From an uncultured bacterium (GTDB lineage: Bacteria > Bacillota_I > Bacilli_A > RF39 > UBA660): a stretch of DNA of 39,823 nucleotides. The translations under genes and the position numbers were made by a program. The stretch covers positions 1 to 39,823 of the forward strand of contig CASDWO010000100.1 of NCBI GenBank assembly GCA_949284575.1. The letters are read 5' to 3'. The stretch's first letter is position 1. Each line of letters opens with the position of its first letter. Shown piece after piece: positions 5,352-29,735 of this stretch. The notes under the pieces were generated by a model, which was not told the DNA's origin, searched no databases, and was given only the letters and a program-made list of their open reading frames with translations.

Positions 5352-7403
5352 TTACCTCTCCTTTATAATATTTTTACTGCATAAATATGTAATTATAAAA
5401 TATCCACCATATACAAAGACAATAATTCCTGCTGTCATGATAATTGATTTTAATAATTCGCCTTTACCAAATGTTTCTAATAAATAAAGACAGAATTTAA
5501 TACCAAATATAGAATGAATAATTGCAATAATCAATGGGAACAAGAAGAATATTCCAATTTGTCTAAATAGAGCTTTATTAAGCATTTTCTCATCAGTTCC
5601 TATTTTTCTTAACATTCTAAATCTTTCTTTATTATCGGTAGATTCTGATAATTCTTTTAGTGCTAAAATGGCTGCACTAGCAATTAAGAAGATAATTCCA
5701 AGATATAAACCAATAAATGTGATCATAGCTCCAAGTCCAATACTACCTTCATATAAAGATAATTTTGTACTTGCTTGTATATCGGTATTTGGAGAATAAG
5801 AGCTTTTATCCAATCCAATAATCATATCTTCTATTTTTTGTTTGCCCTGATCATCATTTGCATTGTAATTAGCAACTAATATACCTGTTTCCCTAGTCAT
5901 ATTTTCTAAAACTTCATCAGGTACAACAAATATTCCCGTGTTAATATGATTACTTGACATATAGACAAATCCATTAACACATTCATTATATTTTGGTGTT
6001 AAACTGACTTCATTTATAGTAATTGGTGTACCTTTTTCCAAACTTCGATTTCTAATATCAGTCCAAAAGTCAACATCAGAAATAATAATATATTCATCAT
6101 CATCTACATAAACAGGATCTAATCCATATAATTTTGCAAGTTTATTATAATCACTTTCCTTAATAAACGTTTCAGCATCATCATAATATAAATATGGAAA
6201 TTCTTTAACTAGTTCATCGTAAACAGAACCTAAAGTATTTTTAATCAAAATATCATTACTAGCATATAAATCAAACTCTATAACATCTTTAAAATATTTA
6301 TCTGTATCAAAACCTAATCTATCTAATGTTTCACTAACTGATATTTTAGAATCATCTATAATCTCTGGAGAATAACCAGAATCAGCTGATATATCCATTG
6401 TTTTATCAAGTTGTATATCAACAGGAGCTAAAGTTTTTAAATTGCTTGTCATTGAATTTCTAATTGAAATAGCACCTGATAACACACATATTGTAAAAAA
6501 CAACATCAAACATATAATAGTCATTGAAAATACTGTTGTGTTAATCTTGCTACTAAATTGTCTTAAGGTGAAACTATTTAAACCTTTGTAATAAACATTC
6601 TTCATACTCATAAATAACTTGAGTAATAATCCAGATAAAGACCAGAAGATAAAGAATGTTGATACAGCCCCTAAAGCTATTGGAATTAATATTTTATCAG
6701 CTGTTTGCATATCTGTTACTCCACCAGTTACACACCAGTAAGCATAACCTAATGCACTAACAGAAACAATAAATACAATTACACATAACCACGGATTTTT
6801 TAATTTTACTTTTTCAGACTTTTTATTTGCATTTAATAAATCAATTAATTTACAACGACTGACATTATATGTATTAAAAATCATGACTAAGATATACATT
6901 ACACTAAAATATATAAGTGTTTTTATACAAGCTGATGATGAAAAGACAAACTCAAATTCAGTCATATTTGCTTCAAACATATTCGCAACAAGTAAGCTCA
7001 TCACTTGCGATAATGCAGTTCCGAGTACCAAGCCAACTACTAATGATATACAACCAACAATTAAAGTTTCAAAAAATAATATTAAAGATATTTTTCTTTT
7101 ACTCATACCTAAAGTTAGATATATACCAAATTCTTTATTTCTTCTTTTCATCAAAAATCTATTTGCATATATAATCAAAAAACCTAATATAAATGCCACG
7201 AAAACACTTACACCAGAAAGCATACTTGTCATTAAATCAATAATCTCATAAGTAGATTCTGATACTTGCATCATAACTGTTTGACTATCGATCGCATTAA
7301 ATATATAAAATATTGCAACACCTAATATTAAAGTAAAAAAGTAGATGGCGTAGTCTTTTATACTTCTCGCAATATTTTTAAAGGATAACTTAAAGAGCAT
7401 CAT
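5352..7403 (-). CDS. BceB-like ABC transporter permease (FtsX family), 683 aa
   Basis: Large peptide-resistance permease. The layout matches BceB/YvcS: an N-terminal membrane helix, a block of three helices with the FtsX-type segment RRNKEFGIYLTLGMSKRKI (about residues 90-110), more helices to about 300, then a large extracytoplasmic domain (about 330-545) between helices 7 and 8, and a final three-helix FtsX block. These transporters free cell-wall lipid targets from peptide antibiotics such as bacitracin, and they also act as the sensor for the partner histidine kinase. The start overlaps the ATPase gene by 14 nt. The ligand cannot be told from sequence. Confidence 0.88.
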   Translation of the reverse strand: MMLFKLSFKNIARSIKDYAIYFFTLILGVAIFYIFNAIDSQTVMMQVSESTYEIIDLMTSMLSGVSVFVAFILGFLIIYANRFLMKRRNKEFGIYLTLGMSKRKISLILFFETLIVGCISLVVGLVLGTALSQVMSLLVANMFEANMTEFEFVFSSSACIKTLIYFSVMYILVMIFNTYNVSRCKLIDLLNANKKSEKVKLKNPWLCVIVFIVSVSALGYAYWCVTGGVTDMQTADKILIPIALGAVSTFFIFWSLSGLLLKLFMSMKNVYYKGLNSFTLRQFSSKINTTVFSMTIICLMLFFTICVLSGAISIRNSMTSNLKTLAPVDIQLDKTMDISADSGYSPEIIDDSKISVSETLDRLGFDTDKYFKDVIEFDLYASNDILIKNTLGSVYDELVKEFPYLYYDDAETFIKESDYNKLAKLYGLDPVYVDDDEYIIISDVDFWTDIRNRSLEKGTPITINEVSLTPKYNECVNGFVYMSSNHINTGIFVVPDEVLENMTRETGILVANYNANDDQGKQKIEDMIIGLDKSSYSPNTDIQASTKLSLYEGSIGLGAMITFIGLYLGIIFLIASAAILALKELSESTDNKERFRMLRKIGTDEKMLNKALFRQIGIFFLFPLIIAIIHSIFGIKFCLYLLETFGKGELLKSIIMTAGIIVFVYGGYFIITYLCSKNIIKER

Positions 7404-8157
7404 TTAAATCCCCACCTAAAAGGGTTACAACATCTATAATTTTATCAAAAAATTCTTTCCTAGAATCACTACCTCTATGTAGTTCGTTAAAGATTTTACC
7501 ATCCTTGATAAATATTACACGACTTGCATAACTGGCTGTAAAAGCATCATGTGTAACCATAAGAATTGTTGCCATTAATTCTTTGTTTAAATATGTAAAT
7601 CTTTCAAGTAACATTTTTGCTGATTTAGAATCTAATGCTCCTGTTGGCTCATCTGCTAAAACAAGTTTTGGATTTGTAATTATTGCTCTAGCTGATGCTA
7701 CTCTTTGCTTTTGTCCTCCACTCATTTGATACGGATATTTCTTTAAAACATCCTTAATATCAAGTTCCTTTGCAACTTTATCAATTCTTTTTGCAATGTC
7801 ACTAGCACTTACATTTTGAATAGAAAGAGCTAAAGCAATATTCTCATAAGCAGTCAGAGTATCAAGTAAATTAAAGTCTTGAAAAATAAAACCTAATTCT
7901 TCTCTTCTAAATTTATTTAATTTATTACCCTTTAATTTTGTAATGTCTTCTCCATCTACATAGATGTGTCCACTTGTTACTCTATCTATTGTAGATATAC
8001 AATTTAAAAGAGTTGTTTTTCCTGATCCACTTGCTCCCATGATAGCAACAAACTCACCCTTATCTACTTCAAATGAGATATTGTCAATTGCTTTGGTAAG
8101 ACTAGATCTACTACCGTAATATTTTTCAACTTTATCAATCTTTAAAATATTTTCCAT
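7390..8157 (-). CDS. BceA-like ABC ATPase, 255 aa
   Basis: MacB/LolD-type nucleotide-binding domain: Walker A GASGSGKTT (about residues 41-49), signature MSGGQKQR, Walker B LVLADEP followed by TGALDSKSAK, and H-loop MVTHDAFTA. The C-terminal tail (ELHRGSDSRKEFFDKIIDV) is typical of BceA/YxdL proteins. It energises the BceB-like permease encoded downstream with a 14-nt overlap. The ATG at 8157 follows AAAGGAGA. The gene has its own control region (8158-8258) holding the same inverted repeat as is found before the response-regulator gene, so induction by the local two-component system is likely. Confidence 0.92.
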   Translation of the reverse strand: MENILKIDKVEKYYGSRSSLTKAIDNISFEVDKGEFVAIMGASGSGKTTLLNCISTIDRVTSGHIYVDGEDITKLKGNKLNKFRREELGFIFQDFNLLDTLTAYENIALALSIQNVSASDIAKRIDKVAKELDIKDVLKKYPYQMSGGQKQRVASARAIITNPKLVLADEPTGALDSKSAKMLLERFTYLNKELMATILMVTHDAFTASYASRVIFIKDGKIFNELHRGSDSRKEFFDKIIDVVTLLGGDLNDAL

Positions 8158-8228
8158 AAAAATTCTCCTTTCTGCTACTAATTTTATGACAAAAAAGGGA
8201 CTTTGTCGTTATTCTAATATTACAGAAC

Positions 8229-8244
8229 ATTACAATTTCGTAAT
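8229..8244. promoter_or_regulatory. Putative BceR-like operator before bceA
   Basis: On the minus strand ATTACGAAATTGTAAT, an inverted repeat ATTAC-N6-GTAAT. Thirteen or more of 16 positions match the element at 9987-10002. It lies about 70 nt upstream of the BceA-like start codon, a fitting place for a response-regulator site. Confidence 0.6.
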
Positions 8245-8258
8245 ACCAAAAATACTTA

Positions 8259-9275
8259 TTAATCCCCTATTTTATAAAAATCATTTTTTGCAAAAGATAT
8301 AACAACCTTTGTATATTCTCCCTCTTTAGATTCAATCCTAACTTTATGACCTAATTTTCTACATAATTTTTTTACGATATAAAGCCCCATCCCAGTTGAT
8401 TTAGAAGTAGCTCTACCATTTTCTCCTGTAAATGTTTTTTCAAATACTCTTTTAATATCTTTCTCTGGTATTCCAATACCATTATCATAAATAATTAAAT
8501 CTACTTGTTTTGAAGTTTCCACAGCATTAATTTTAATAATGCTATTATTATCTTTAGTATATTTCATACTATTACTAACAACTTGATTCACGATAAATTC
8601 TAGCCATTTTGAATCTGTTAATACTTTTATATCAGATAGTTCTACTTCAAAACAAATATTTCTTTCTAATAAATCATTTTTGTTTTTCATGGCTACTGAA
8701 TTAATTACTTTTTTCAAACTGGTGTCTTTAATTAAATAATCTTTTTCAGCATTCTCACTTCTAACAAAATAAAGGATTTGATCCACATAATCATCTATTC
8801 TTCTTATTTGCTCATCATATTTTTTATCTACATTTGTTTTATGATTATGATTCATTAAAACTAAACTAGAAATAGGAAGTTTTATTTCATGTATCCAAAG
8901 TTCCACATATTCTTTAAAATCATTCAAACTTATTTCTAAATCTTTGACATTTTCATTCATTGATTTATTAATTTCATATAATACTTGGTATAGTATTTTT
9001 CCATCATAAAAAGATGGCTCATTTAACATTTCTAAAACAAGATACTTTTTATCTAGTTTATCTACATTATTTATTAAATTAGTGTAAAATCTTCTTCTTT
9101 TAATATACCCAGTTAAAATTATCATAATGAAGAATAACAAAAATACTACTGTTATCCCTATAATAACTTCTTTTGAAATTTTAAAAGCAAATAACATCAT
9201 TAGAACAATGAAATATCCGAATAAAGCAAATAATATCTCTAACCATTTATCAAAAACATATTTACTAAATTTCAT
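8259..9275 (-). CDS. BceS-like intramembrane-sensing histidine kinase
   Basis: A 338-residue kinase with two closely spaced N-terminal membrane helices (about residues 15-31 and 37-56) and almost no external loop, the hallmark of the BceS family, which senses through the transporter rather than directly. The phosphoacceptor is His129 in WIHEIKLPIS. The ATPase domain shows an N-box (FIVNQVVSNSMKYT), a G1 box (IYDNGIGIPEKD) and a G2 box (STGMGLYIVKKL). The start codon overlaps the end of the response-regulator gene by 4 nt. It should phosphorylate the regulator upstream when the BceAB-like transporter is working. Confidence 0.9.
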   Translation of the reverse strand: MKFSKYVFDKWLEILFALFGYFIVLMMLFAFKISKEVIIGITVVFLLFFIMIILTGYIKRRRFYTNLINNVDKLDKKYLVLEMLNEPSFYDGKILYQVLYEINKSMNENVKDLEISLNDFKEYVELWIHEIKLPISSLVLMNHNHKTNVDKKYDEQIRRIDDYVDQILYFVRSENAEKDYLIKDTSLKKVINSVAMKNKNDLLERNICFEVELSDIKVLTDSKWLEFIVNQVVSNSMKYTKDNNSIIKINAVETSKQVDLIIYDNGIGIPEKDIKRVFEKTFTGENGRATSKSTGMGLYIVKKLCRKLGHKVRIESKEGEYTKVVISFAKNDFYKIGD

Positions 9276-9934
9276 AACAACTTATACCCTAGTCCCTTTC
9301 TCGTTTCAATTGCATTTTCTATTCCAAAAGATTCTAGTTTTGCTCTTAATCTGCTTATATTTACGGTCAAAGCATTTTCGTTAATATATTCTTCGTTATT
9401 CCATAGTTCTGTCATTAATTCATCACGAGTTACTATATTAGAGCGATTATTTAATAAATAAGAAAATATAATCATTTCATTTTTAGTTAAATCTAATATT
9501 TCTTCGCCTTTCATTAAAATCCCTTTACCTTGATATACTTTTACATCATCATAGGTAAGAAAGTCTGTACTTTTTTCCATTCTCTTGAAAATATTAGATA
9601 TTCTTAATAATAAAATTGTTGGATTATAAGGTTTTGTTATATAATCATCTGCCCCATAACTCATAGACAATACTTCATCAGTTTCTCCTACTCTACTTGT
9701 TACCATAATTACGGGGATATTAGACTGCTTTCTAAACTCTTTTAATAAAGTTTCGCCATTCATTTTAGGTAAATTTATATCTAATAGAAGCAAATCAAAT
9801 TTACTCTTTAATATATCCTCTAAAGTATTATCAAATCGTTCCAATAAGATAACCTTATATCCAGATGTTTCTAAAAGTGTTTTAAGTTCATCTCTTATTG
9901 ATTTTTCATCTTCGACTATCATGATTGTTTTCAA
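9272..9934 (-). CDS. BceR-like OmpR-family response regulator
   Basis: Two domains: a receiver with acidic pair Glu8-Asp9, phosphoacceptor Asp52 (LLLLDINLP), Thr in VTS and Lys in ITKPYN, followed by an OmpR-type winged helix (about residues 125-220, with TKNEMIIFSYLLNN and VNISRLRAKLE). I prefer a TTG start at 9934, five nt after GGTGG, giving MKTIMIVEDE; an in-frame GTG at 9946 and an ATG at about 9922 are alternatives. It should activate the BceAB-like transporter operon and probably its own gene, because the same inverted repeat precedes both. Confidence 0.88.
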   Translation of the reverse strand: MKTIMIVEDEKSIRDELKTLLETSGYKVILLERFDNTLEDILKSKFDLLLLDINLPKMNGETLLKEFRKQSNIPVIMVTSRVGETDEVLSMSYGADDYITKPYNPTILLLRISNIFKRMEKSTDFLTYDDVKVYQGKGILMKGEEILDLTKNEMIIFSYLLNNRSNIVTRDELMTELWNNEEYINENALTVNISRLRAKLESFGIENAIETRKGLGYKLL

Positions 9935-9958
9935 AATAACCACCACATTTCATTAATA

Positions 9959-14925: not shown

Positions 14926-15387
14926 TCAATCTAAGTAGAACTGATATACCCTTTCTTCTATGAACTCTACCTGATTAGTATATATAGCTAAATAATAAAA
15001 TGCTTTTGATTTATAGTTAGCTACGCTTCTTAATGAAACATTTATTCTTCTAGCAATTGCATCATCAGATAATCTATAAAAACATTTTAATTTTAAATAT
15101 TCTCCAATTAAAGGATCAAAAGATTTTATATTCATAATGTTTTCTATGAATAAAGCTATTTGATCATTATTCCAAGACAATCTATCTATTAATTTAGAAT
15201 CAGTCGATTTTAAACCACTAGAATTACTACATACAACAATACTAGCTGAATTTATTGGAATTTTACTTAATTGTTTTAATCTCTTTTCTACTAATGGTTG
15301 ATAAAGCAAAAATACTTCTTTACCATTTGCAATAGTTTTTCTCATATCTATTTTTGATGCTATTTCGCTATTAAATACATTTACCAT
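14926..15387 (-). CDS. ArpU/sigma-like HTH protein, 153 aa
   Basis: The C-terminal part (about residues 105-140) has a sigma-70 region-4-like helix-turn-helix: YLKLKCFYRLSDDAIARR, then INVSLRSVANYKSKAFYYL. This is the pattern of phage-type late regulators (ArpU/RinA group). The N-terminal part has no motif I recognise. The ATG overlaps the stop of the cold-shock gene (TAATG), so they are co-translated. In phages and integrative elements such proteins switch on late or packaging genes; here no such genes are in view, so the target may be the element's own operons. Confidence 0.55.
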   Translation of the reverse strand: MVNVFNSEIASKIDMRKTIANGKEVFLLYQPLVEKRLKQLSKIPINSASIVVCSNSSGLKSTDSKLIDRLSWNNDQIALFIENIMNIKSFDPLIGEYLKLKCFYRLSDDAIARRINVSLRSVANYKSKAFYYLAIYTNQVEFIEERVYQFYLD

Positions 15388-15638
15388 TATACAGTAGGAA
15401 CATTATTTTCTACAATAGATTCTACTGCTAATTTTTGAACATTTAATGCTTTTTGCATTTCTGAATCGTATTCAAAAGCAACTATATCATTTTGATCTAA
15501 ACTTTTAAATCCTTTCATTTGAATATCAGAGAAATGAACATATATATCATTTTCTATCTCATCACACGAAATAAAACCATATCCTTTTTCGTTACTAAAC
15601 CACTTAACCCTACCTTTATAACTTACTCTTTCTTCCAT
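15387..15638 (-). CDS. Cold-shock domain protein, 83 aa
   Basis: Single-stranded nucleic-acid-binding OB fold: GRVKWFSNEKGYGFISC (RNP1 motif, about residues 9-25) and DIYVHFSDI (RNP2, about 31-39). Longer and more divergent than the chromosomal copy at 24166-24384, with an unusual C-terminal extension. It overlaps the end of the membrane protein gene by 23 nt, has an AAAAGGAG ribosome binding site, and overlaps the ArpU-like start, so it belongs to the mobile-element operon. A cold-shock protein on an element may act as an RNA chaperone or antiterminator for element transcripts (inference). Confidence 0.82.
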   Translation of the reverse strand: MEERVSYKGRVKWFSNEKGYGFISCDEIENDIYVHFSDIQMKGFKSLDQNDIVAFEYDSEMQKALNVQKLAVESIVENNVPTV

Positions 15639-16197
15639 TTTTTTCTCCTTTTCTATTCTTGATTATTTCACTACCTTCTACTGCTAATTTATATAATTTA
15701 TCAATTTTTATAGTAAAATAATTAATTGATAACATAACTACTGCAAGAACTACTATTAAATAAAAACTACTCATAAAACTATTTAATAAATTAAAATTAT
15801 AATTTATTAATACTGCAATTGGTAATAATAATAAGCTTAAAATTATTAATTTATAAATCATTTCAATACTATATTTATACTTATAAGATGCAAACCCTAT
15901 TATAAATAATGAAACAACAAATGTAATAATATAAGTGTTAATTAAAAAGGTTTTAAAATCTTCTATTTTTTGTAAAAAAGCATAATTACTATTATTCCAT
16001 AAATGGATTAAACTATTAGTCGATAAACTAATACAATAAACTACTAAAGCAAATATTAATAGTTTATTAATAACTTTCAATATTTTAGATAATTTAAAAT
16101 AATTTTGCATTCTCTTATTATTACCTTCACCACACCAATATTCTTCTGCATTAATTCCAAATAAATCTTTATAAAACTGCCTTATCTTAGTTTTAAT
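15616..16197 (-). CDS. Four-helix membrane protein with ATT start
   Basis: Unknown membrane protein with about four hydrophobic helices in the last 150 residues. The first canonical ATG is at 16110, but it has no good ribosome binding site, and the frame stays open upstream for 29 more codons (KTKIRQFYKDLFGINAEEYW, then CGEGNNKR). At the very start stands GGGAGG (16205-16210), followed by ATT codons at 16200 and 16197, 4 and 7 nt away, just 13 nt after the MazF-like stop. I therefore place the start at ATT 16197 (194 residues); ATG 16110 is the fallback. The extra segment is hydrophilic with a Cys and a Trp. Overlaps the cold-shock gene by 23 nt. Confidence 0.6.
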   Translation of the reverse strand: MKTKIRQFYKDLFGINAEEYWCGEGNNKRMQNYFKLSKILKVINKLLIFALVVYCISLSTNSLIHLWNNSNYAFLQKIEDFKTFLINTYIITFVVSLFIIGFASYKYKYSIEMIYKLIILSLLLLPIAVLINYNFNLLNSFMSSFYLIVVLAVVMLSINYFTIKIDKLYKLAVEGSEIIKNRKGEKNGRKSKL

Positions 16198-16210
16198 AAT
16201 TTTTCCTCCC

Positions 16211-16537
16211 TTAATTTAAATCCAATGAAATGGATAAAGCATCATTTATTTGTTCTAAAGTTTTTTCATCTAATGTTCCAATATAATTAATTATCTGTTC
16301 TTTTGAAATAGTCATAATACTTTCACACAAAGCCATTTGTTTAGAATTTACAATTACATGAACTGGCATAGTAATTTTTTTTAGTTTAGTGGTAAGAGGA
16401 ACTACAATTAAAATTTTAGAAAATGTATTTCCAAAATTATTTTGAACCACTACACAAGGTCTAATGCCTGTTTGAATATGTGGATAATCATTCTTTAATT
16501 TAACTAATAAAATATCCCCTCTTTTAATATTTTTCAT
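16211..16537 (-). CDS. MazF/PemK-like toxin, 108 aa
   Basis: PemK/MazF fold: RGDILLVKLKNDYPHIQTGIRP (conserved Arg-Gly-Asp at about residues 6-8), CVVVQNNFGN, LIVVPLTTKLKK and ALCESIMTISKEQI. Members of the family are mRNA interferases that cut RNA at short sequences. The start overlaps the stop of the upstream 86-aa gene (ATGA), so expression is coupled to it. No MazE-like antitoxin is recognisable; the upstream 86-aa protein takes its place in the operon but does not look like a known antitoxin. Some PemK-like proteins on mobile elements are not toxic, so toxicity is an inference. Confidence 0.8.
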   Translation of the reverse strand: MKNIKRGDILLVKLKNDYPHIQTGIRPCVVVQNNFGNTFSKILIVVPLTTKLKKITMPVHVIVNSKQMALCESIMTISKEQIINYIGTLDEKTLEQINDALSISLDLN

Positions 16538-16794
16538 AAGTTATAAATTCTTATTTTTTCTTCCATTTCTAAAATATAATAAGCGTAAATTGGATATTTT
16601 GTTCTTCTTTTAACGATATAATCATCCTCATAAACAATTTTTAATATGCACTTAAACCCTTTTTTTCTTAAAACTTCTATAATTTTTTCTTTACCAATTC
16701 TTTTTACTATTTCTCTACCACAGCAACAATTACCATATCTTCTTAGATGTTGCAAAATCCATTCAGGGATTTGGATCTCATCTGAGAACTTCAT
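16534..16794 (-). CDS. Unknown 86-aa protein, possible MazF partner
   Basis: Small protein with a Cys triplet (YGNCCCGREIVKRIG, Cys at about residues 23-25) and an alpha/beta pattern after it (EKIIEVLRKKGFKCILKIVYEDDYIVKRRTKYP broken by charged residues). The ATG at 16794 follows GGAGGAGC. It overlaps the MazF-like start by 4 nt, the classic layout of an antitoxin-toxin pair, but there is no recognisable DNA-binding fold of the MazE type. Cysteine clustering could bind metal. I do not recognise the family. Confidence 0.55.
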   Translation of the reverse strand: MKFSDEIQIPEWILQHLRRYGNCCCGREIVKRIGKEKIIEVLRKKGFKCILKIVYEDDYIVKRRTKYPIYAYYILEMEEKIRIYNL

Positions 16795-16820
16795 AATAGT
16801 TGCTCCTCCTATACATCAAT

Positions 16821-16997
16821 CTAATAAATTTTTATTAGATCATCTTCAAAATTACTGCCTACTTCAAAAAATTTTAATTCGTCATCACCATCAAATAAAT
16901 AGCAAATTATGTTATCTATTTTTTGAATTATGGTTAAAAAATTCCCGTGTTTATCAGATAAAGAATTGTATATTCTGTATCTTTCTCCCTTTTTTAT
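16821..16997 (-). CDS. Hidden 58-aa gene with ATA start
   Basis: Open frame with no ATG, GTG or TTG in it, running from a TAA at 16998-17000 to a TAG at 16821. It reads (ATA)KKGERYRIYNSLSDKHG, then NFLTIIQKIDNIICYLFDG and DDELKFFEVGSNFEDDLIKIY, an amphipathic protein-like composition with acidic C-terminus. GAGAGGTGA lies upstream so that ATA 16997 is 7 nt after GAGG. The downstream gene begins 26 nt after its stop, with a GGAGGAG ribosome binding site in between. It is therefore the first gene of the operon that contains the 86-aa protein and MazF. The function is unknown. Confidence is limited by the absence of a standard start codon. Confidence 0.5.
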   Translation of the reverse strand: MKKGERYRIYNSLSDKHGNFLTIIQKIDNIICYLFDGDDELKFFEVGSNFEDDLIKIY

Positions 16998-17015
16998 TTA
17001 CTCACCTCTCTTCTA

Positions 17016-17031
17016 TTCCACTATTGTGGAC
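17016..17031. promoter_or_regulatory. Element operator, copy A
   Basis: TTCCACTATTGTGGAC, differing in one base from the perfect palindrome GTCCAC-TATT-GTGGAC. It lies upstream of the ATA-start gene and the MazF operon. Confidence 0.65.
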
Positions 17032-17101
17032 TGTTGTTTCAAAAAAAATATAACTCCATATTCTTTTCTAAAACTGATATACCACCTCCAAATCGTAAGT
17101 T

Positions 17102-17117
17102 GTCCACTATTGTGGAC
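17102..17117. promoter_or_regulatory. Element operator, copy B (perfect)
   Basis: GTCCAC-TATT-GTGGAC, a perfect 6+4+6 inverted repeat, 86 bp from copy A in the same control region (16998-17213). Confidence 0.7.
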
Positions 17118-17213
17118 TACAATAATAATATACTCTATTAAAAATATTTTGTCAATACTTCCTGTGGATAAAAAACTGTATAGATTTTTTCTATACAGAG
17201 TACCTTATCAGTT

Positions 17214-17519
17214 TTAATGGACTTTATCATATTTTTTTAATGTTGATAAAATTTCATCCATTTGTAGGTCGTCTTCTACTGATATGGTACTAACAATACC
17301 AATTAATTCTAATAATTGTTCATATTTTACTACCAAAGAATTACTTGCTAAAAGATCTTTTATAGTCTTATCGTAATCTTCCTCTACTGCCAATAATTTT
17401 TTAAAAACTTCATTTAAAACTGCATATGGAACATCGCTTTTACTTTCAAAATATTCCTTTAATACTTCTAAAACTACCTTTACTTCTTTTACTGCCTTAT
17501 TTTCATCTTTAGTTATCAT
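17214..17519 (-). CDS. Unknown helical protein, 101 aa
   Basis: All-helical, acidic protein (KDENKAVKEVKVVLEVLKEYFE and further helices to KKYDKVH), without Cys, membrane segments or known motif; the heptad-like Leu/Val spacing suggests helix packing. I chose the ATG at 17519, which has AAAGG about 9 nt upstream; a TTG at 17537 would lie inside the preceding gene. It is encoded directly after the 62-aa gene and before the MazF operon. Such small helical proteins are common in the regulatory part of integrative elements, but I do not recognise a family. Confidence 0.55.
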   Translation of the reverse strand: MITKDENKAVKEVKVVLEVLKEYFESKSDVPYAVLNEVFKKLLAVEEDYDKTIKDLLASNSLVVKYEQLLELIGIVSTISVEDDLQMDEILSTLKKYDKVH

Positions 17520-17520
17520 T

Positions 17521-17709
17521 TCATTTTTCCTTTCCAATCGGTACTGCCTTTTTTAGTGATGCTTTGTCCTTTAAATTCCTTAAGCATACTTCTAAAATGC
17601 GAATCGTTAATTCATTATCCAATTGGGTTTTACATGTAACACTATTATTACTTCCATTGTAAAGAATCTGGATACTTCTAGTTGTTTCTGAAGACTGCCA
17701 TTTATTCAA
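17521..17709 (-). CDS. Unknown 62-aa protein
   Basis: Short protein with a TTG start (17709) after an AGGTGA ribosome binding site. The sequence shows a beta-rich N-terminal half (RSIQILYNGSNNSVTCKTQ) and a helical, basic C-terminal half (TIRILEVCLRNLKDKASLKK). It is the first gene of the leftward unit driven from the control region that faces the Xre repressor, preceded by a possible 10-codon leader peptide. Its position next to a CI-like repressor resembles small control proteins of integrative elements. No family recognised. Confidence 0.5.
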   Translation of the reverse strand: MNKWQSSETTRSIQILYNGSNNSVTCKTQLDNELTIRILEVCLRNLKDKASLKKAVPIGKEK

Positions 17710-17732
17710 ACTTTCACCTGCCTTTCTATAAG

Positions 17733-17765
17733 TCAGGACGAAACCATCACCCTGATTTTTATCAT
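17733..17765 (-). CDS. Possible 10-aa leader peptide
   Basis: ATG four nt after AAGGTGG, then IKIRVMVSS and a TGA, 23 nt before the 62-aa gene. A weak stem (TCAGG / CCTGA) brackets the second half. It could couple translation or act as an attenuator, or be chance. Confidence 0.3.
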   Translation of the reverse strand: MIKIRVMVSS

Positions 17766-17782
17766 ACTACCACCTTACTTCC

Positions 17783-17804
17783 AATATAGCACATATACTA
17801 TATT
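17783..17804. promoter_or_regulatory. Inverted repeat in divergent control region
   Basis: AATATAG, 8-nt centre, CTATATT. It lies in the leader or promoter of the leftward operon. It is AT-rich, so chance is possible. Confidence 0.3.
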
Positions 17805-17834
17805 AATTTAATTTTAGCAAATTATTTTAAATAA

Positions 17835-17850
17835 GTCCACTATTGTGGAT
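17835..17850. promoter_or_regulatory. Element operator, copy C
   Basis: GTCCACTATTGTGGAT, one mismatch from the perfect palindrome. It lies between the leftward operon and the Xre gene at 17945. Confidence 0.7.
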
Positions 17851-17865
17851 TTTTTTAACAAATTG

Positions 17866-17881
17866 TTTTACTATAGTGGAC
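17866..17881. promoter_or_regulatory. Element operator, copy D (degenerate)
   Basis: TTTTACTATAGTGGAC matches the palindrome at 12 of 16 positions, keeping the right half-site. Its start is 31 bp (about three helical turns) from copy C, so both could be filled by one repressor on the same face of DNA. Confidence 0.55.
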
Positions 17882-17944
17882 TTTTTTCTGAAAATAATAT
17901 AAAATATATATGCAGTATCATAAAAGAAAAGAAGGGAGGATACA

Positions 17945-18346
17945 ATGACCAGAGAAGAAGCAATAAGACAGATTATTTTGGATTATTGTGAAAGCAACAA
18001 CATACTAATTACTCAATTTGCGAAAAGATGCAACATAAGTAAATCATACATAAGTAAAATTAATTTAAAACAATTTGGAAAATTAGGAATATCTATGACC
18101 TATCTCGAACTTATAGCTAAAGGATTAAATATGTCTATGGTAGATTTACAAATTTTAATTGAAAAATATCAAAATTGTAATCATCAAAATAAAGAAGAAA
18201 CGAAAAAAGAACTTATCCTGTGCGAAATCAATGATAAACTAAGAAATTTTAATGTAGAAGATTTGGAAATTGTACATAGTATTATATCAAATGTTAATCA
18301 TAAAGATTTAAACATTTTACATAGTTTTTTAAAAAATATGCGATGA
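17945..18346 (+). CDS. CI-like Xre repressor of the element, 133 aa
   Basis: N-terminal HTH_3 domain (about residues 8-68): AIRQIILDYCESNNILITQFAKRCNISKSYISKIN with recognition helix around SKSYISKIN, then a helical C-terminal part (about 85-133; KEELILCEINDKLRNFNVEDLEIVHSII broken here for length) probably for dimerisation. It has no peptidase domain, so induction would not be by RecA-type self-cleavage. It reads rightward, opposite to all other element genes, from a region with two GTCCAC-type operators; this is the standard place for the element's master repressor. The ATG follows GGGAGG. Confidence 0.8.
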   Translation: MTREEAIRQIILDYCESNNILITQFAKRCNISKSYISKINLKQFGKLGISMTYLELIAKGLNMSMVDLQILIEKYQNCNHQNKEETKKELILCEINDKLRNFNVEDLEIVHSIISNVNHKDLNILHSFLKNMR

Positions 18347-18466
18347 CATATTTTTTTTTATAAAAAAATACTTCAAAAAATTGATAATTAAATATGCTTA
18401 AATAATTATCTATTTTTAAAGAAAACAAGCACATAATTACTAATATTAAGATGATTACATTTAAAA

Positions 18467-19300
18467 TTATATTTCAAGATCATAATCTAAATCATAATTA
18501 TCTTCCTTTTCATTCTTATTTACAAACCATCCAGTTTCTGGATCTATTACAAGTTCTTCATTATTTTTTAATTTTAATATACAATTATTTATTGCTCCTT
18601 TAAAGAATCCAAATTTATTTTCTATTCTATTACCTTCTTCATCTATAAATTCATAATCAATCACATTTCCATTTTTATCAATATACTTATTCTTTGAAAT
18701 CCTTGACAAAATGTAATCTGTCATAATTATGGTTTTTTTATAGGTATGTTGTTTTATCAATTTTTCAAATAAACTATCATAATAATAAATATCTGTGTCT
18801 TCTATATCAATATATTTGTTCTTTATTAATTTATGTGTTAAAGGATTTAATTCATCTAAATCAACAAAAGAAAGATTACTTTTAACATCTTTAACTGTTT
18901 GTTCTTTAGTATTTTGTTTATTAGTATTTATTTGGTTGTCTTTTTCGGTATCTCCTATATCGGCATATCCCTTTTGGGTATCTGGATTATTTTTCTCTTG
19001 TAAAACATCTAATGGAATCTCTCTAATTATATATTCATATTTATAATAGCCTTTTTCACCTCTTGTTTGTTGAATCTCTAAGTAGCCATGATCTTTCAAT
19101 TCATTAAGTATTGATCTTATTGCCTTTATATTTTCTTTACTAACTGCAACTAGCCCTTTCATTGAATAATCCCAATCTTCTGGTAAACTTAACATAAAAG
19201 AAAGTAAACCTTTTGCTTTATAAGATAAACTTCTATCTTGTAAATGGTAATTACTCATTACAGTATAGTTTTTTTGCTTTTCTATTTTAAACACTGCCAT
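18467..19300 (-). CDS. Replication-initiator-like HTH protein, 277 aa
   Basis: The N-terminal part (about residues 1-95) looks like the winged helix of RepA/phage replication proteins: MAVFKIEKQKNYTVMSNYHL, then RSLSYKAKGLLSFMLSLPEDWDY, SKENIKAIRSILNELKDHGYL. A polar, Asn/Lys/Thr-rich linker (about 110-140) and an acidic C-terminal domain (ending YDLDYDLEI) follow. Such proteins serve as replisome organisers in plasmids, phages and integrative elements. The ATG at 19300 has AAAGGGTGAT upstream; an in-frame TTG at 19321 is less likely. It stands next to the integrase, suggesting an autonomous replication stage after excision (inference). Confidence 0.65.
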   Translation of the reverse strand: MAVFKIEKQKNYTVMSNYHLQDRSLSYKAKGLLSFMLSLPEDWDYSMKGLVAVSKENIKAIRSILNELKDHGYLEIQQTRGEKGYYKYEYIIREIPLDVLQEKNNPDTQKGYADIGDTEKDNQINTNKQNTKEQTVKDVKSNLSFVDLDELNPLTHKLIKNKYIDIEDTDIYYYDSLFEKLIKQHTYKKTIIMTDYILSRISKNKYIDKNGNVIDYEFIDEEGNRIENKFGFFKGAINNCILKLKNNEELVIDPETGWFVNKNEKEDNYDLDYDLEI

Positions 19301-19325
19301 ATAATCACCCTTTCTTTGCAAAATA

Positions 19326-19352
19326 AAAAAGCTAATAAACTTTTAGCTTTTT
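19326..19352 (-). terminator. Terminator after integrase
   Basis: AAAAAGCTAA / TTAGCTTTTT stem on the minus strand overlapping the integrase stop codon. It separates the integrase from the downstream replication gene. Confidence 0.65.
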
Positions 19353-20655
19353 AAGTATTTTTATTTTTTAGTATAGATATTGAAAGAGAATTAGTATAGT
19401 CTTCAAATTTACTAACTACTTCTTCTTCCATTTTTAAAGTTACTCTTACATAAATATTATAAGTTGTTTGTATTGTAGAGTGTCCAAGTCTTTTAGAAAC
19501 GGCTTTAATATCTGCTCCTTGTTCAATCAATCTTGTTGCATGTGTATCCCTAAAGTCATGAAATCTACAAGGGATACCTAATTCATAATGGATTATTTTA
19601 AAAGGATGTTTAGTAGTATCAGTTCCTTCAAAAATTCCATTGTTTTTAACAAATATTAGATTAACTTCTGGTAAGGCAACATCTATTTCAGCAAGAGCAT
19701 TTACAATTTTTATTTCTGGTTTATTATTATATGGATTAATTACTTCTTTCATATAATGCTTCATATACAAATCTCCATATTGTTCTTTAAAAAGTTCTTG
19801 TTCTTCTTTAAAATCTTTTAATGCTTGAAGTAATGTATCTCCTATTTCTATAGTTCTATGACTAGATGCTGTTTTACATGGACCAAAATACCAAATAGTT
19901 TTTGCTTTTCCCTCAATCAACCTTTTCTTTGTTCCTCCATGTTGATTTTTTTTAAGAACCTTTCTATCTACTTTTATTGTTTTCTTTTCAAAGTCTATAT
20001 CATCCCATGTTAAGGCAAACACTTCAGATACACGAAGTCCTGTATAGTATGCTGTTAAAAACGAATAATAAATAGTATGACTATTTCTAAATCTATTAAA
20101 AATGCGTTCAATTTCTTCTGGCGTAAAAATATGAACAGGATCTTTTTCAGGTATATCATATTTAGGCAATTTTACTTTTAGTGCTGGGTTGTCTTTTATA
20201 AAATCTAATACATCAGCTGCATAACCAAAAGAGCCTTTCAAGATTTTTAATATCGTATTTAAGAAACTTTTTGATACTCCCTTAGTAATATATATATCAT
20301 TAATAAGTTCCTGTAAAGTCGATGGAGTAATTTGAGACAATCTATAAAATCCTAATCTTGGTTTTAAATAATTTTTTATAATATTTTGATATGACAAAAT
20401 TGTTGAATATCTTAAATTTACTTCACAATATGTTTTTATCCAATAATCTAAATAATCCGAAAATGACATATTAGAAGGTTCAAATTTACGACCTGTATTT
20501 AGATACTCATTATAAGCTTTCATTCCAGCTTCATAAGCATCTCGTTTTGTTTTAAAACCAGACTTATTTATAAATTTTCTTTTTCCTCCTTGAGAGGCTA
20601 TTTCAAATCTGTATTGAAAGAAATTTCCTCTTTTCATAATACTTACTTTTCCCAT
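19351..20655 (-). CDS. int: Tyrosine recombinase/integrase, 434 aa
   Basis: Phage-type integrase with three parts: an N-terminal arm-binding segment (about residues 1-55, KRGNFFQYRFEIASQ), a SAM-like core-binding domain (about 60-165, FSDYLDYWIKTYCE), and the catalytic domain (about 175-420). Catalytic residues are visible: Arg in TGLRVSEVFALTW, His366 and Arg369 in HDFRDTHATR, His392 in RLGHSTIQ, and the nucleophile Tyr402 in YNIYVRV. It mediates site-specific insertion and excision. It is read away from secA, with a terminator and TGCACACA repeats between them, so the attachment site is probably in the secA 3' intergenic region. Strong AAAGGAGG ribosome binding site. Confidence 0.93.
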   Translation of the reverse strand: MGKVSIMKRGNFFQYRFEIASQGGKRKFINKSGFKTKRDAYEAGMKAYNEYLNTGRKFEPSNMSFSDYLDYWIKTYCEVNLRYSTILSYQNIIKNYLKPRLGFYRLSQITPSTLQELINDIYITKGVSKSFLNTILKILKGSFGYAADVLDFIKDNPALKVKLPKYDIPEKDPVHIFTPEEIERIFNRFRNSHTIYYSFLTAYYTGLRVSEVFALTWDDIDFEKKTIKVDRKVLKKNQHGGTKKRLIEGKAKTIWYFGPCKTASSHRTIEIGDTLLQALKDFKEEQELFKEQYGDLYMKHYMKEVINPYNNKPEIKIVNALAEIDVALPEVNLIFVKNNGIFEGTDTTKHPFKIIHYELGIPCRFHDFRDTHATRLIEQGADIKAVSKRLGHSTIQTTYNIYVRVTLKMEEEVVSKFEDYTNSLSISILKNKNT

Positions 20656-25274: not shown

Positions 25275-25394
25275 ATGAAAAAAAGAATGGCTAAAGTACT
25301 AGCTGCTGTTGCTATGTTAGCTACTGCAAGTGCAAGTGTTGGATGCATTTGGTGGTGTCTAGATGAACCAAAAGCTTTAAAAGACATGGACTAA
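25275..25394 (+). CDS. agrD: AgrD-like cyclic autoinducer precursor, 39 aa
   Basis: Short peptide gene with an AAAGGGATGA ribosome binding site. N-terminal amphipathic leader KKRMAKVLAAVAMLATASAS, then the predicted core GCIWWCL and the acidic tail DEPKALKDMD. The Cys-x-Trp core and [DE]EPK tail match the cyclic lactone autoinducer peptides of Firmicutes. Cys24 is the likely thiolactone donor; Cys28 is an unusual second cysteine inside the core. The mature ring could run from Cys24 to Cys28 or Leu29. It is probably matured by the AgrB encoded before it and sensed by the kinase encoded on the other strand. Confidence 0.85.
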   Translation: MKKRMAKVLAAVAMLATASASVGCIWWCLDEPKALKDMD

Positions 25395-25397
25395 AAT

Positions 25398-25417
25398 AAG
25401 AGTGCCCTAACACTCTT
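25398..25417. terminator. Bidirectional terminator between agrD and agrC
   Basis: AAGAGTG, CCCTAA loop, CACTCTT with T tracts on both strands. It serves the convergent agrBD and agrAC transcripts. Confidence 0.75.
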
Positions 25418-26704
25418 TTATTTTACAATTATTTTTTGAATAAAATAGTTATTTAAGAATTGTTGTTCAACGGCAATTCTTTTTTCTTTTCTAATAACTT
25501 TATTAGCGAAATAAAGGCCTCTACCATGACCTGATCCTTTAGTAGTAAAGCCTTTTTCATTCATCTTTTTAATAGATAATACTTTACTACAAGAGTTAGA
25601 TATAACAAAATAAAGTTCTTTTTCTTTTTCATAAATTTCAATTGTAACATTTTTATGTTTTTCTTTTTTACATGCATCTAGAGCATTATCTATATAAATA
25701 CCAAGAACAATACAAAGAGATTCTAAGAGATCTTTATCTAATTTGGATATTTTACCTTTTATTTTGGGACTTACATCTATATAAATATTTATATTGGCTT
25801 TTAAAGCTAATGCTAATTTATAATATAGTAAGCCTTTTAAACCGCCTTTAGGTATTTCTTTTAGAGTTTCAATATAGTTATCATCAATAACCATATTCAT
25901 TTTAAGCATTTTATCTATTTTTTTGTCTATTTCTTTTTTATTAGTTAAATTTCTAATTATAGATAAATTATTCTTTAGTTCATGTCTATACATTTGTTCA
26001 TTATCAATCCAATCTTCGAATGTTTGGACATAACTAAACATTGTATTATATTCATCTTTTAACTTATCATAATTATTTCTTTCTTCCATATAGATATAAT
26101 AGAGAATAAAAAATAGAATAATACTAAAAAAGGTAATTGTATATTGCAAATTAAATTTAAAAATTGTTGTAATATTGTAATATAAAAGACATACTATTAC
26201 TACGACTATAATGGTAAAAAGTGTACTTTTTATCTTTTTATTTTGTTCTACTTTATCACTAATACGTTTAAATATATTAATTGCTTTTTTTTGGTAGGAT
26301 ATTAAAATTGAGATAGCACTAATTAAAGTATTATTAGCTATAATAATATACCAAACATTTCTAACTTGATAATAAGAAAAAATAGGAATCTCTACAATTG
26401 TTAAAGTTACATCAACTAAAGCAGTTAATAGCATTATATAGCCACATACTAGTATAGACTGTGCTATGTCAATTTTAAATAAATATTTAAACATTAAAGC
26501 CATAATTGTATATACCATTAATGTGAAAATTATATTATATTTAACGTCATATAATACAAAAGTAGGACTTGTGATCAATAAAATAGCACCTATTACTTTT
26601 AAAATGCTTATTTTACCTTCATAATTTAAAATCTTTCTAGCAATAATAAATGCACTAGTACTCATAATTATACCTAAAATTAGTTTAACTATTATTGGTA
26701 ACAT
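25418..26704 (-). CDS. agrC: AgrC-like sensor histidine kinase, 428 aa
   Basis: N-terminal sensor of about six membrane helices (residues about 1-205) and a cytoplasmic GHKL kinase part. Phosphoacceptor His in MYRHELKNNLSIIRNL (about residue 243), N-box LGIYIDNALDACKKEK and G-box GSGHGRGLYFANKVI. This is the class that reads cyclic autoinducer peptides. The start overlaps the LytTR regulator gene by 20 nt, so they form one operon. The sensor faces outward to bind the AgrD-derived peptide. Confidence 0.85.
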   Translation of the reverse strand: MLPIIVKLILGIIMSTSAFIIARKILNYEGKISILKVIGAILLITSPTFVLYDVKYNIIFTLMVYTIMALMFKYLFKIDIAQSILVCGYIMLLTALVDVTLTIVEIPIFSYYQVRNVWYIIIANNTLISAISILISYQKKAINIFKRISDKVEQNKKIKSTLFTIIVVVIVCLLYYNITTIFKFNLQYTITFFSIILFFILYYIYMEERNNYDKLKDEYNTMFSYVQTFEDWIDNEQMYRHELKNNLSIIRNLTNKKEIDKKIDKMLKMNMVIDDNYIETLKEIPKGGLKGLLYYKLALALKANINIYIDVSPKIKGKISKLDKDLLESLCIVLGIYIDNALDACKKEKHKNVTIEIYEKEKELYFVISNSCSKVLSIKKMNEKGFTTKGSGHGRGLYFANKVIRKEKRIAVEQQFLNNYFIQKIIVK

Positions 26705-27490: not shown

Positions 27491-27525
27491 AAAAAAAATA
27501 GTAGTTATTTAACCCTATTTTTTTT
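27491..27525 (-). terminator. Terminator after tagO
   Basis: AAAAAAAATAG / CTATTTTTTTT stem with a 13-nt loop; overlaps the stop codon of the glycosyltransferase gene. Confidence 0.65.
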
Positions 27526-28623
27526 ATGGCGAGGCTCTTTTTTTATGACTTCTCCTACTTTATCTATAATATTATCAGTCATCTCTTTATTCTTTTTAGA
27601 GATTATTGTAGTTCTTAAGACAAACCATACGACAATTATAAAAATTATTATATATAATATTTTTCCCATAACAGGATCTTTTAAAGAGTAAAAGATTGAG
27701 GCACTTGCAAATAAAAGATTAAAGCCATATATAATTAAAACGGTAGTTCTTTGTGAAAAATTCATTCCTAATAGTTGATGATGAATGTGCTCTTTATCAG
27801 GAGAAAAGGGGGCTTGATGTTTTAAAAGACGTCTTATAATTGCAAAGAGTGTATCTAGAATAGGTATTCCTAAAATCATTAATGGAACAAATAAACTAGT
27901 TAAAGCTGGACCTTTAAATTCTAATAATGTTATTACTGCTATCATGAAACCAAGATACATAGCACAATCTCCACAAAATATTTTAGCAGGATAGAAATTA
28001 TGAAGGAGAAAACCTAATGTTGCTCCTAACATTATAAATGTTAAAGTCATAACTAAACTGCCACTACGTCCTTGGAAAAAACCAATAATTCCTATAGTTA
28101 AAAAGAAAATACTACTTATTCCACCACTTAAACCATCTAAACCATCAATTAGATTTATTATATTAACACAGGCGACAATAAAAAAGACAGTAAGGGGATA
28201 AGAGAAAATTCCAAAGTTTATTGTATAACCAAAGGCAGTAATATTATTTAATAAGAAGCCTCCATAAAATACTAAGATAGAAGCAGCGATGAGCTGACCT
28301 ATTAATTTATATCTTGCTTTTAGAGATTTTATATCATCTATAATTCCTGTTAAGATAATAATAAAACTACCTATTAGTATTGAATTCATTTGGACACTTT
28401 CTGTTCCAAAGAGCATATATCCTATTAAAAAAGCTAAAAAGATACCAACACCGCCTAATTTAGGGATAGGCTTAGTATGAATATGTCTATTACCTTCATC
28501 ACTTCTTGGAACATCTATAGCGTTTATATAATGAGCTATTTTCTTCATAAATGGCATAATCAGTGCCGAACATACAAATGTAGTAATAACTATTTTTAGA
28601 GTTTCTAGTATTTCTTGATTCAT
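27505..28623 (-). CDS. tagO: Undecaprenyl-P GlcNAc-1-P transferase (TagO/WecA family)
   Basis: A 372-residue polytopic protein of the MraY/WecA family. Motifs: VPRSDEGNRHIHTKPIPK with GGVGIF, TGIIDD (the metal-binding Asp pair, about residues 90-95), NLIDGLDGLSGG, and the C-terminal HIHHQLLG. The HIHH motif and lack of MraY-specific sequence point to the polyprenyl-phosphate HexNAc-1-P transferases that begin wall teichoic acid or related glycopolymers. It works at the inner face of the membrane. The C-terminal tail is basic. Confidence 0.85.
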   Translation of the reverse strand: MNQEILETLKIVITTFVCSALIMPFMKKIAHYINAIDVPRSDEGNRHIHTKPIPKLGGVGIFLAFLIGYMLFGTESVQMNSILIGSFIIILTGIIDDIKSLKARYKLIGQLIAASILVFYGGFLLNNITAFGYTINFGIFSYPLTVFFIVACVNIINLIDGLDGLSGGISSIFFLTIGIIGFFQGRSGSLVMTLTFIMLGATLGFLLHNFYPAKIFCGDCAMYLGFMIAVITLLEFKGPALTSLFVPLMILGIPILDTLFAIIRRLLKHQAPFSPDKEHIHHQLLGMNFSQRTTVLIIYGFNLLFASASIFYSLKDPVMGKILYIIIFIIVVWFVLRTTIISKKNKEMTDNIIDKVGEVIKKEPRHKKNRVK

Positions 28624-28724: not shown

Positions 28725-28744
28725 AGTCACTAAAATAGTGGCTT
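28725..28744 (-). terminator. Terminator after mbl
   Basis: Stem around CACTA-TTT-TAGTG (with one mismatch further out) followed by T5CT3 on the minus strand. Confidence 0.65.
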
Positions 28745-29735
28745 AATTATCTTCTAATAATTTTATATTATCAAGTAATACTCCTGTTCCTTCAACAACA
28801 CAAGTTAGGGGACTATCAGCGATAAGAACTGGTACTTTTAACTCTTTTTTTAGTAAATCATTAAGACCTTTTAACATTGAACCTCCACCGGTTAAGACAA
28901 TACCTTTATCAACAATATCAGCAGATAATTCAGGTGGTGTTTGTTCTAAAACATTAGTTGCTGCTTTTACTATCTTGTAAACAGATTCCTTTAAGGCTTC
29001 TAGAGTTTCTTGTTCATTTATTTCAATAGTGCTAGGTAAGCCTGTAACTAAGTCTCGGCCTCTTACTTCTAATTTATTCTTTTTGTCAGGTTCATAGACA
29101 TTAGCAAAGTCAACTTTAATTTCTTCAGCTGTTTTTTCACCAATTAAAAGTTTATATTTTTCTTTTATATATTTAACAATATCTTGATCAAAAACATTAC
29201 CAGCGATTCTTACTGAAGCACTATTAACGATATCATTTAATGATAAAATAGCTATATCTGTTGTACCACCACCAATATCTATTACCATATTTGCACTTGG
29301 TTTAGAAATATCCATACCTGCTCCTATAGCTGCAACTTTAGGTTCTACTTCTAAAAATACTTTTCTTGCTCCTGTACGTTCTGCTGCTTCTTTAATAGCA
29401 TTCTTCTCAACAGGAGTTATATTGGTTGGACAACAAATTAAGATTCTTGGTCTTGATAAGAAGTTACGAGCATGAATTTTTCTAATGAAGTAATCTAACA
29501 TTATCTCAGTTATTTCAAAGTCTGCAATTACCCCATCTTTCATTGGTTTTATAGCTTTTACTTTTTCAGGAGTTCTTCCTAACATTTCACTAGCATCTTT
29601 ACCTACTGCTACTACTTTTTTATTATCAGTATCAATAGCGACAACACTAGGTTCATTTAAAACTATTCCTTCACCTTTTATATAAATTAGAACATTTGCT
29701 GTTCCTAAATCTATGCCAATATCTTTTGAAAGCAT
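28743..29735 (-). CDS. mbl: MreB/Mbl-type actin, cell-shape protein, 330 aa
   Basis: Bacterial actin with phosphate-1 IGIDLGTANVLIY, phosphate-2 VIDIGGGTTDIAIL, and adenosine motif GIVLTGGGSMLKGL. It polymerises at the membrane and guides lateral cell-wall synthesis. I favour Mbl over MreB because of length (330 against 333 in B. subtilis), because mreC and mreD are missing nearby, and because it sits beside a SpoIIQ-like gene, as mbl does in B. subtilis. It could still be the only MreB of this genome. Confidence 0.9.
   Translation of the reverse strand: MLSKDIGIDLGTANVLIYIKGEGIVLNEPSVVAIDTDNKKVVAVGKDASEMLGRTPEKVKAIKPMKDGVIADFEITEIMLDYFIRKIHARNFLSRPRILICCPTNITPVEKNAIKEAAERTGARKVFLEVEPKVAAIGAGMDISKPSANMVIDIGGGTTDIAILSLNDIVNSASVRIAGNVFDQDIVKYIKEKYKLLIGEKTAEEIKVDFANVYEPDKKNKLEVRGRDLVTGLPSTIEINEQETLEALKESVYKIVKAATNVLEQTPPELSADIVDKGIVLTGGGSMLKGLNDLLKKELKVPVLIADSPLTCVVEGTGVLLDNIKLLEDN

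Follow-up and report, generated by a model that had tools for sequence, protein, structure and literature searches.

An agr signal precursor with a recurrent, receptor-linked second cysteine in its predicted ring from an uncultured RF39 bacterium

The window, a stretch of 39,823 nucleotides from an uncultured bacterium (GenBank assembly GCA_949284575.1, contig CASDWO010000100.1; GTDB lineage Bacteria; Bacillota_I; Bacilli_A; RF39; UBA660), contains an agr locus (Table 1). The start of agrD lies 43 bases past the stop codon of agrB, and its 39-residue product, MKKRMAKVLAAVAMLATASASVGCIWWCLDEPKALKDMD, combines a cysteine nucleophile (Cys24, codon 25344–25346), a hydrophobic core and a tail with acidic residues and proline, as AgrD precursors do; the core reads CIWWCL and is followed by DEPK. 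In alignment A1, the tail residues E31, P32, A34 and L35 are invariant. A family model search matched the precursor to TIGR04223 with 21.4 bits, above the curated cut-off of 19, and a six-frame genome search with TIGR04223 at E 0.001 did not return it. The initial annotation had read this ORF as an AgrD with two cysteines, Cys24 and Cys28, in its signal core, which the translation, the TIGR04223 match and the adjoining agrB confirm; judged from its sequence, the ORF is a true AgrD and not a chance ORF.

Table 1. Features of the agr locus in the window
Feature	Position	Strand	Basis
agrB, membrane peptidase/cyclase, 197 aa	24638..25231	+	PF04647, E 4.4e-32
agrD, signal peptide precursor, 39 aa	25275..25394	+	TIGR04223 match, translation
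Predicted signal ring C24-I-W-W-C28-L29, six residues	25344..25361	+	Family spacing, tree tracking; closure inferred
Cys28, second cysteine, core position 4	25356..25358	+	11/27 genus AgrDs; AgrC Thr179 link
C-terminal recognition tail DEPKALKDMD	25362..25391	+	Removal by AgrB expected; residue 30 tracks AgrB
Terminator-like hairpin, bidirectional, between agrD and agrC	25398..25417	.	2 found vs 0.3 expected in shuffles
AgrC-like sensor kinase, 428 aa, probable cognate receptor	25418..26704	-	GHKL domain, E 1.6e-11
AgrC Thr179, helix end before last transmembrane helix, candidate Cys28 contact	26168..26170	-	11/11 vs 1/15
AgrA-like LytTR response regulator, 243 aa	26685..27416	-	PF04397, E 7.2e-12

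AgrB, the only AgrB match in the source assembly (92.9% complete), has R69, G74, H76 and C83 at the spacing of R70, G75, H77 and C84 in the Staphylococcus aureus enzyme (excerpt of PMC10196373). The motif R-x4-G-x-H-x6-C is intact in all 27 genus AgrBs examined; a search for sequence relatives in the PDB found none at E 0.001, the best match having E 0.53. The genes for the AgrC-like kinase and the AgrA-like regulator lie on the opposite strand, convergent with agrB-agrD. The kinase matches the staphylococcal AgrC model NF046015 (E 9.1e-16) and the regulator the staphylococcal AgrA model NF046049 (E 1.7e-9), in both cases far below the model's own cut-off, and the AgrC profile of the genus matches the S. 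aureus AgrC kinase chains 6e52 and 4bxi. Past agrA, translations judged by eye show a 372-residue membrane protein (27505–28623) and then an MreB-like protein (28743–29735). A promoter scan gave 9 matches with 6.9 expected, which is about chance level, and an alignment of cspA–agrB intergenic regions contained no recognisable AgrA site. The locus is a complete, genuine agr quorum-sensing system with an uncommon type of signal.

Two other regions of the window deserve mention. A small mobile element may occupy 14926–20655, against the 3' end of secA; its possible parts are a tyrosine integrase (19351–20655), an HTH_36 protein with weak likeness to DnaD (18467–19321), an HTH_3 regulator (17945–18346, + strand) and a PemK/MazF-like toxin gene (16211–16537), while its left limit is a guess and 14926–15387 has no family match. 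At 5352–9946, genes for an FtsX-type permease, an ATP-binding protein, a sensor kinase and a response regulator follow one another, a gene row that we take to resemble peptide-antibiotic resistance modules.

For comparison we used 35 genomes of the genus, 28 of which have an AgrB match, with 30 matches in total. At 27 of these 30, agrB is directly followed by an AgrD of the same type; the others are a locus whose contig ends 123 bases past agrB (L020), an agrB fragment at a contig end (L029) and a third locus of genome G017 with a different type of AgrD (L031). A search of the genome contigs for related loci returned three loci only. All 27 AgrDs have the form leader-GC-xxxxx-[DENA]EP[KDR]AL, and in three of them (L004, L008 and L011) position 5, counting the first cysteine as 0, is Ala, followed by EEP. 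The loci as cut also contain CspA (27), HPF (26), the N-terminus of SecA (19) and AgrC (26), and by eye the gene order, with SecA-HPF-CspA on the minus strand, agrB-agrD on the plus strand and agrC on the minus strand, is constant wherever the genes are present. Receptor and tracking tests were performed on 26 systems, G020 having no AgrC on its contig.

Outside the genus, a spacing pattern yielded 135 AgrD rows from the family, which became 133 when the second ORFs of L102 and L181, neither of them an AgrD, were removed; a second ORF in L033, also picked up by the pattern, was discarded by eye as non-AgrD. These rows derive from TIGR04223 matches in 71 of 193 family genomes and from matches to an AgrD profile of the genus in 95 of 386 genomes, of which five belong to the genus, and the profile search may favour six-residue spacing. 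Weak matches to TIGR04223 (G214, G159, G120 and G064) and to the profile (G174, G076, G754, G712, G735, G736, G650 and G669) were kept outside the count. Among loci found by TIGR04223 only, 68 of 70 have the D-E tail motif; L035 and L091 have other tails and were not counted either. Twelve AgrDs from other families of the class (L105–L112, L116, L118, L119 and L121) were read by eye, with L120, a repeat of L118, and L115, which is not AgrD-like, left aside. The rarity of two-cysteine cores was measured in the family and in these twelve.

A cysteine occupies core position 4 in 11 of the 27 genus AgrDs: besides CIWWCL of the window, the cores are CVWWCL, CALFCA, CLWWCA, CAWLCA, CVWFCA, CTWLCV, CAWWCA, CVILCI, CVLWCI and CIILCI. 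Positions 1–3 have no cysteine at any of 81 sites and position 5 has one, in CAWWMC, so that the other variable-core sites (positions 1, 2, 3 and 5) together contain a cysteine at 1 of 108; with 11 of 27 at position 4, the second cysteine is not a product of chance. Otherwise position 4 is I, L, F or M. Outside the genus, the cysteine-led family AgrDs of the same spacing have Cys at position 4 in only 1 of 123 cases. Four of these 123 have extra cysteines, namely CACFVW (position 2), CVWFLC and CVMFLC (position 5) and CCWFCF (positions 1 and 4), the last being the three-cysteine core of L170 in genome G746.

Cysteines also occur where they would be the closing residue. In L136 (G161), L158/L161 (G112) and L030 (G017), the cysteine is at core position 5, the would-be closing residue of a six-residue ring; in G112, some 1.6 kb separate two agr loci whose AgrD cores are identical. 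In L119 (G468), an AgrD of another family, the core was read as SARHC before HQE, with Ser as the nucleophile and Cys as the last of a five-residue ring.

The distribution of the second cysteine follows the receptor. The AgrC tree accounts for Cys at position 4 with 5 changes, compared with 8.6 when shuffled (3 of 500 shuffles as low); the AgrB tree needs 7 (81 of 500), and the tree of the housekeeping proteins HPF, CspA and SecA needs 10 (466 of 500), on which the trait is unclustered. Both halves of AgrC cluster the cysteine, the sensor half with 5 changes (2 of 500) and the kinase half with 4 (0 of 500), so the agrC gene appears to move as a whole. The AgrC tree leaves 9 of its 23 inner branches open and the housekeeping tree is poorly resolved, with 2 starred branches of 23; at least 2 changes of the second cysteine follow from the starred AgrC branches taken by themselves. 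Within supported AgrC clades the cores are similar: C[AGS]WW[LM]x; CVLFI[VI] with C[VI][LI]WLV; C[AVT][WL][LF]C[AV]; C[IVA]WWC[LA]; C[VI]ILCI; and CLWW[FC]A. G016, G006, G028, G003 and G017 stand alone. On these sequences, the second cysteine belongs to several receptor types and not to one species line. Because it clusters on the AgrC tree and not on the housekeeping tree, the signal–receptor pair seems to have been exchanged or sorted among species, a pattern comparable with the agr groups of staphylococci.

We then compared 1027 residue features of AgrC with the second cysteine. The best match is Thr179, present in 11 of 11 receptors of two-cysteine signals and in 1 of 15 others, an association reached by none of 1000 label shuffles and by 10, 4, 2 and 2 of 500 simulations on the AgrC tree at four rates that give similar counts and changes. 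The exception inside the genus is G028, with Phe at position 4; among nine systems outside the genus that have no second cysteine, Thr179 occurs once, in G184, G112 being counted once and the alignment of these distant rows being less sure. For G746, which could have served as an outside test, no AgrC was found in the 5 kb examined. Phe109 behaves similarly (10 of 11 versus 2 of 15, and 0 of 9 outside the genus). Positions 273 and 342 also associate with the second cysteine within the genus, and Ile273 was not read as specific because it is present in 7 of the 9 outside receptors lacking the cysteine. An independent-pairs test on the AgrC tree could draw on 2 pairs only. Cys87 of AgrC, considered as a partner of Cys28, was rejected (7 of 11 versus 2 of 15; independent pairs 0.2 to 0.2, 2 pairs).

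In a moderately confident structural model of AgrC (mean pLDDT 75.8, pTM 0.53), used for helix boundaries only, the helix 158–180 ends at a short loop (181–185) and residue 109 lies in the loop 106–110. With the kinase inside the cell, residues 109 and 179 would both face outward, and Thr179 is a candidate contact of Cys28. For S. aureus AgrC, discrimination between AIP-1 and AIP-4 rests mainly on three residues in extracellular loop 2, and specificity becomes broader when residue 171, in predicted loop 3, is changed (excerpt of PMC10482373).

The second cysteine might instead be near-neutral, a small hydrophobic residue tolerated at position 4 whose thiol has no special role. A single base change turns a Phe or Trp codon into a Cys codon, the residues found at this position elsewhere in the genus are I, L, F and M, and two sister receptors, with 60 differences over 215 sensor positions, go with a single-cysteine signal in G010 (Phe) and a two-cysteine signal in G021 (Cys). 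Nevertheless, we consider this reading rather unlikely: cysteine is absent from positions 1–3, which are likewise hydrophobic, outside the genus it occurs in 1 of the 123 relatives, and the simulations seldom reproduce the link to Thr179. Taken at the level of sequence, Cys28 is a recurrent, receptor-linked feature of the genus.

Assuming that AgrC is the reader of the ring and AgrB that of the tail, one would expect the variation of an AgrD column to follow the tree of its reader. Core positions 2, 3, 4 and 5 gave 2, 1, 2 and 0 of 2000 shuffles as low on the AgrC tree (n = 26), and 555, 1385, 1526 and 380 on the AgrB tree, which they do not track. Position 6 (residue 30) follows the AgrB tree (0 of 2000) and the AgrC tree weakly (80 of 2000). 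Core position 1 shows no AgrC tracking (240 of 2000). Leader position -2 follows neither AgrC (1346 of 2000) nor AgrB (1365 of 2000); it follows the housekeeping tree at 1 of 300 in an earlier 300-shuffle run, which covered fifteen variable columns on three trees, so that single weak values mean little. When five deep-branching receptors were removed, positions 2, 3 and 5 gave 0, 3 and 1 of 2000 on AgrC and position 6 gave 1 on AgrB, with position 4 on AgrC weakening to 58 of 2000. Position 5 is the strongest AgrC-tracking column. As position 6 is nearer to agrC on the DNA than position 5 is, the drop in AgrC tracking from position 5 to position 6 is not explained by simple linkage to agrC.

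Distances computed between the proteins point the same way to co-evolution of the core with AgrC. Core distance correlates with that of the AgrC sensor at rho 0.317 (0 of 999 permutations), and with the linker at 0.161 (22 of 999), the kinase at 0.185 (11 of 999), AgrB at 0.132 (62 of 999) and HPF at 0.117 (82 of 999). Leader distance correlates with AgrB (rho 0.476, 1 of 999) and HPF (rho 0.330, 21 of 999), and not with AgrC. At the level of the genus, the AgrC of the window can be counted as the probable cognate receptor, co-varying with the core.

The boundary between AgrC-tracking and AgrB-tracking columns lies where the cut would be expected. AgrB of S. aureus cuts M32|D33, with D33 and E34 essential (excerpt of PMC10196373). 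Asp30-Glu31 of the window correspond to this Asp-Glu pair, and applying the S. aureus register places the cut at L29|D30 and the ring at C24–L29. From the nucleophile up to the D-E pair there are six residues in 128 of the 133 family AgrDs outside the genus, five in 2 and seven in 3, and the 128 have Cys (123), Thr (3) or Ser (2) as nucleophile. The rows found by TIGR04223 alone, with the second ORF of L102 removed, give six residues in 66 of 69, five in 2 and seven in 1. In the 123 cysteine-led rows, entropy is 2.7–3.3 bits at positions 1–5 and falls to 0.38 at position 6 (D 114, E 9), 0.00 at position 7 and 0.48 at position 8, a fall that is partly built in because the spacing pattern admitted only seven letters at position 6 and P/E/D/S at 8 and required E at 7. 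A six-residue ring from Cys24 to Leu29, cut before Asp30, is thus the most likely prediction, and by its spacing the precursor would belong with AIPs of the six-residue-ring type and not with the canonical five-residue type. The ring had earlier been proposed to close at Cys28 or at Leu29, leaving a second thiol spare. Spacing and the tracking boundary favour Leu29, closure at Cys28 fits less well, and Cys28, penultimate in the ring and not its closing residue, would indeed keep a spare thiol.

Some family AgrDs depart from this pattern. Thr (3) or Ser (2) replaces the nucleophilic cysteine in L031 (G017), L058, L124, L048 and L063, which perhaps encode lactone signals, and L057, L186 and L194, in which the D-E pair is preceded by seven residues, possibly encode seven-residue rings.

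Closure at Cys28 would mean that AgrB cuts past this residue and that the sulfur of Cys24 is joined to the carbonyl of Cys28, whose thiol stays free. Rings of five residues are the common type (excerpts of PMC12312760 and PMC11297923), and the twelve AgrDs from other families are compatible with them, six with Cys having the canonical spacing, one residue shorter than here, and six with Ser/Thr being readable likewise. For the window such a ring is unlikely, given that the family spacing is one residue longer, that position 5 is hydrophobic, variable and the column that tracks AgrC most strongly, and that D30-E31 would be one residue too distant from the cut.

The initial annotation had gone further, raising the possibility of a disulfide or alternative ring and of a new autoinducer chemotype. 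Both cysteines would then be active, either in a Cys24–Cys28 disulfide or in a cyclic hexapeptide formed from a tailless peptide by an S-to-N shift and bridged by the freed thiols into a bicycle. Cysteines at i and i+4 can form such a bridge, and the indifference of leader position -2 to AgrC would fit a tailless signal. Tailless thiolactones do rearrange, freeing the first thiol (excerpt of PMC11297923). We found no positive evidence for this chemistry, however, and regard it as improbable: a single-cysteine signal goes with a sister receptor, and no AgrC cysteine was found to accompany the trait, Cys87 included. The sister receptors and the Ser/Thr nucleophiles are both compatible with a usual (thio)lactone formed at the first position. 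The initial annotation is supported in part. That the ORF encodes a small lipoprotein or its signal peptide, as a leader with G-C presumably resembling a loose lipobox might suggest, is scarcely credible in view of the TIGR04223 match, the agrB directly upstream, the conserved tail and the substitution of Ser/Thr for Cys in 5 of 133 relatives, which is incompatible with lipidation.

A six-residue thiolactone with a free Cys28 thiol, read by AgrC, offers the best explanation of these data and is probably correct as a whole. AgrB would cut AgrD at Leu29|Asp30 and pass the Leu29 carbonyl to the thiol of Cys24, closing a six-residue, 19-atom thiolactone C-I-W-W-C-L. The leader would be removed near Ala20|Ser21, leaving the exotail Ser-Val-Gly, or directly before Cys24. 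Next to the closing residue, Cys28 would keep its thiol in reduced form, and outside the cell the peptide would be read by the outer face of AgrC, with Cys28 and the bulky pair W26-W27 helping to set which receptor responds; signal-bound AgrC would then drive AgrA. Some observations fit this explanation less well: the kinase half of AgrC also follows the core, Thr179 occurs without the cysteine in G028 and G184, core position 1 does not track AgrC, and the five family AgrDs that are one residue longer or shorter indicate that the spacing is not absolute. More speculatively, and doubtfully, the genus may represent a clade with free-thiol agr signals in which redox-tuned switching occurs between thiolactone, transthioesterified and disulfide (bicyclic) forms, Thr179 receptors reading the reduced thiol.

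The agr system and six-residue rings are already known; the new part, as far as partial coverage of the literature allows, would be a second cysteine that recurs across several receptor types. The literature matches listed include no two-cysteine AIP, most subscription journals lying outside the coverage, and in the excerpts consulted the described agr signals have one central cysteine or serine. The genus provides a natural series of signal–receptor pairs with and without the cysteine, with which one can test the reading of a ring residue by AgrC and any influence of a ring thiol on signal stability or redox behaviour. In addition, the point at which tracking passes from AgrC to AgrB, here between residues 29 and 30, provides a computational locator of the AgrB cut in unculturable systems.

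Among known systems, some AIP rings have 6 residues rather than 5, according to a primer (excerpt of PMC12312760). Six-residue-ring AIPs have been predicted for Clostridium acetobutylicum and relatives, where the synthetic peptide R6T0 is active, and the window shares with this type the predicted ring size and the separate agrBD and agrCA units (excerpt of PMC10301443). It differs in its second core cysteine, of which that excerpt makes no mention for the C. acetobutylicum type, and in that the LanM-like gene found there downstream of agr was not seen beside the window locus, in translations judged by eye. The tailless pentameric AIPs of Listeria, which rearrange to homodetic peptides, share the cysteine-led ring and possibly the tailless processing, whereas their ring has five residues and that of the window a predicted six (excerpt of PMC11297923). 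Lactone AIPs such as GBAP of Enterococcus faecalis and the AIP of S. pseudintermedius illustrate that ring size and nucleophile vary, as the Ser/Thr variants of the family also do; they use Ser where the window has Cys, and the ring of GBAP has nine residues (excerpt of PMC12312760). With staphylococcal agr (AgrD/AIP, TIGR04223) the window shares the R-G-H-C motif of AgrB, the hydrophobic leader, the cysteine and hydrophobic core, Asp-Glu at the expected cut, the AgrC/AgrA pair and a core that co-varies with the AgrC sensor. In contrast to the single staphylococcal operon, its agrBD and agrCA are convergent, and its AgrD has one extra residue between Cys and Asp-Glu, the tail DEPKALKDMD and a second cysteine in the core.
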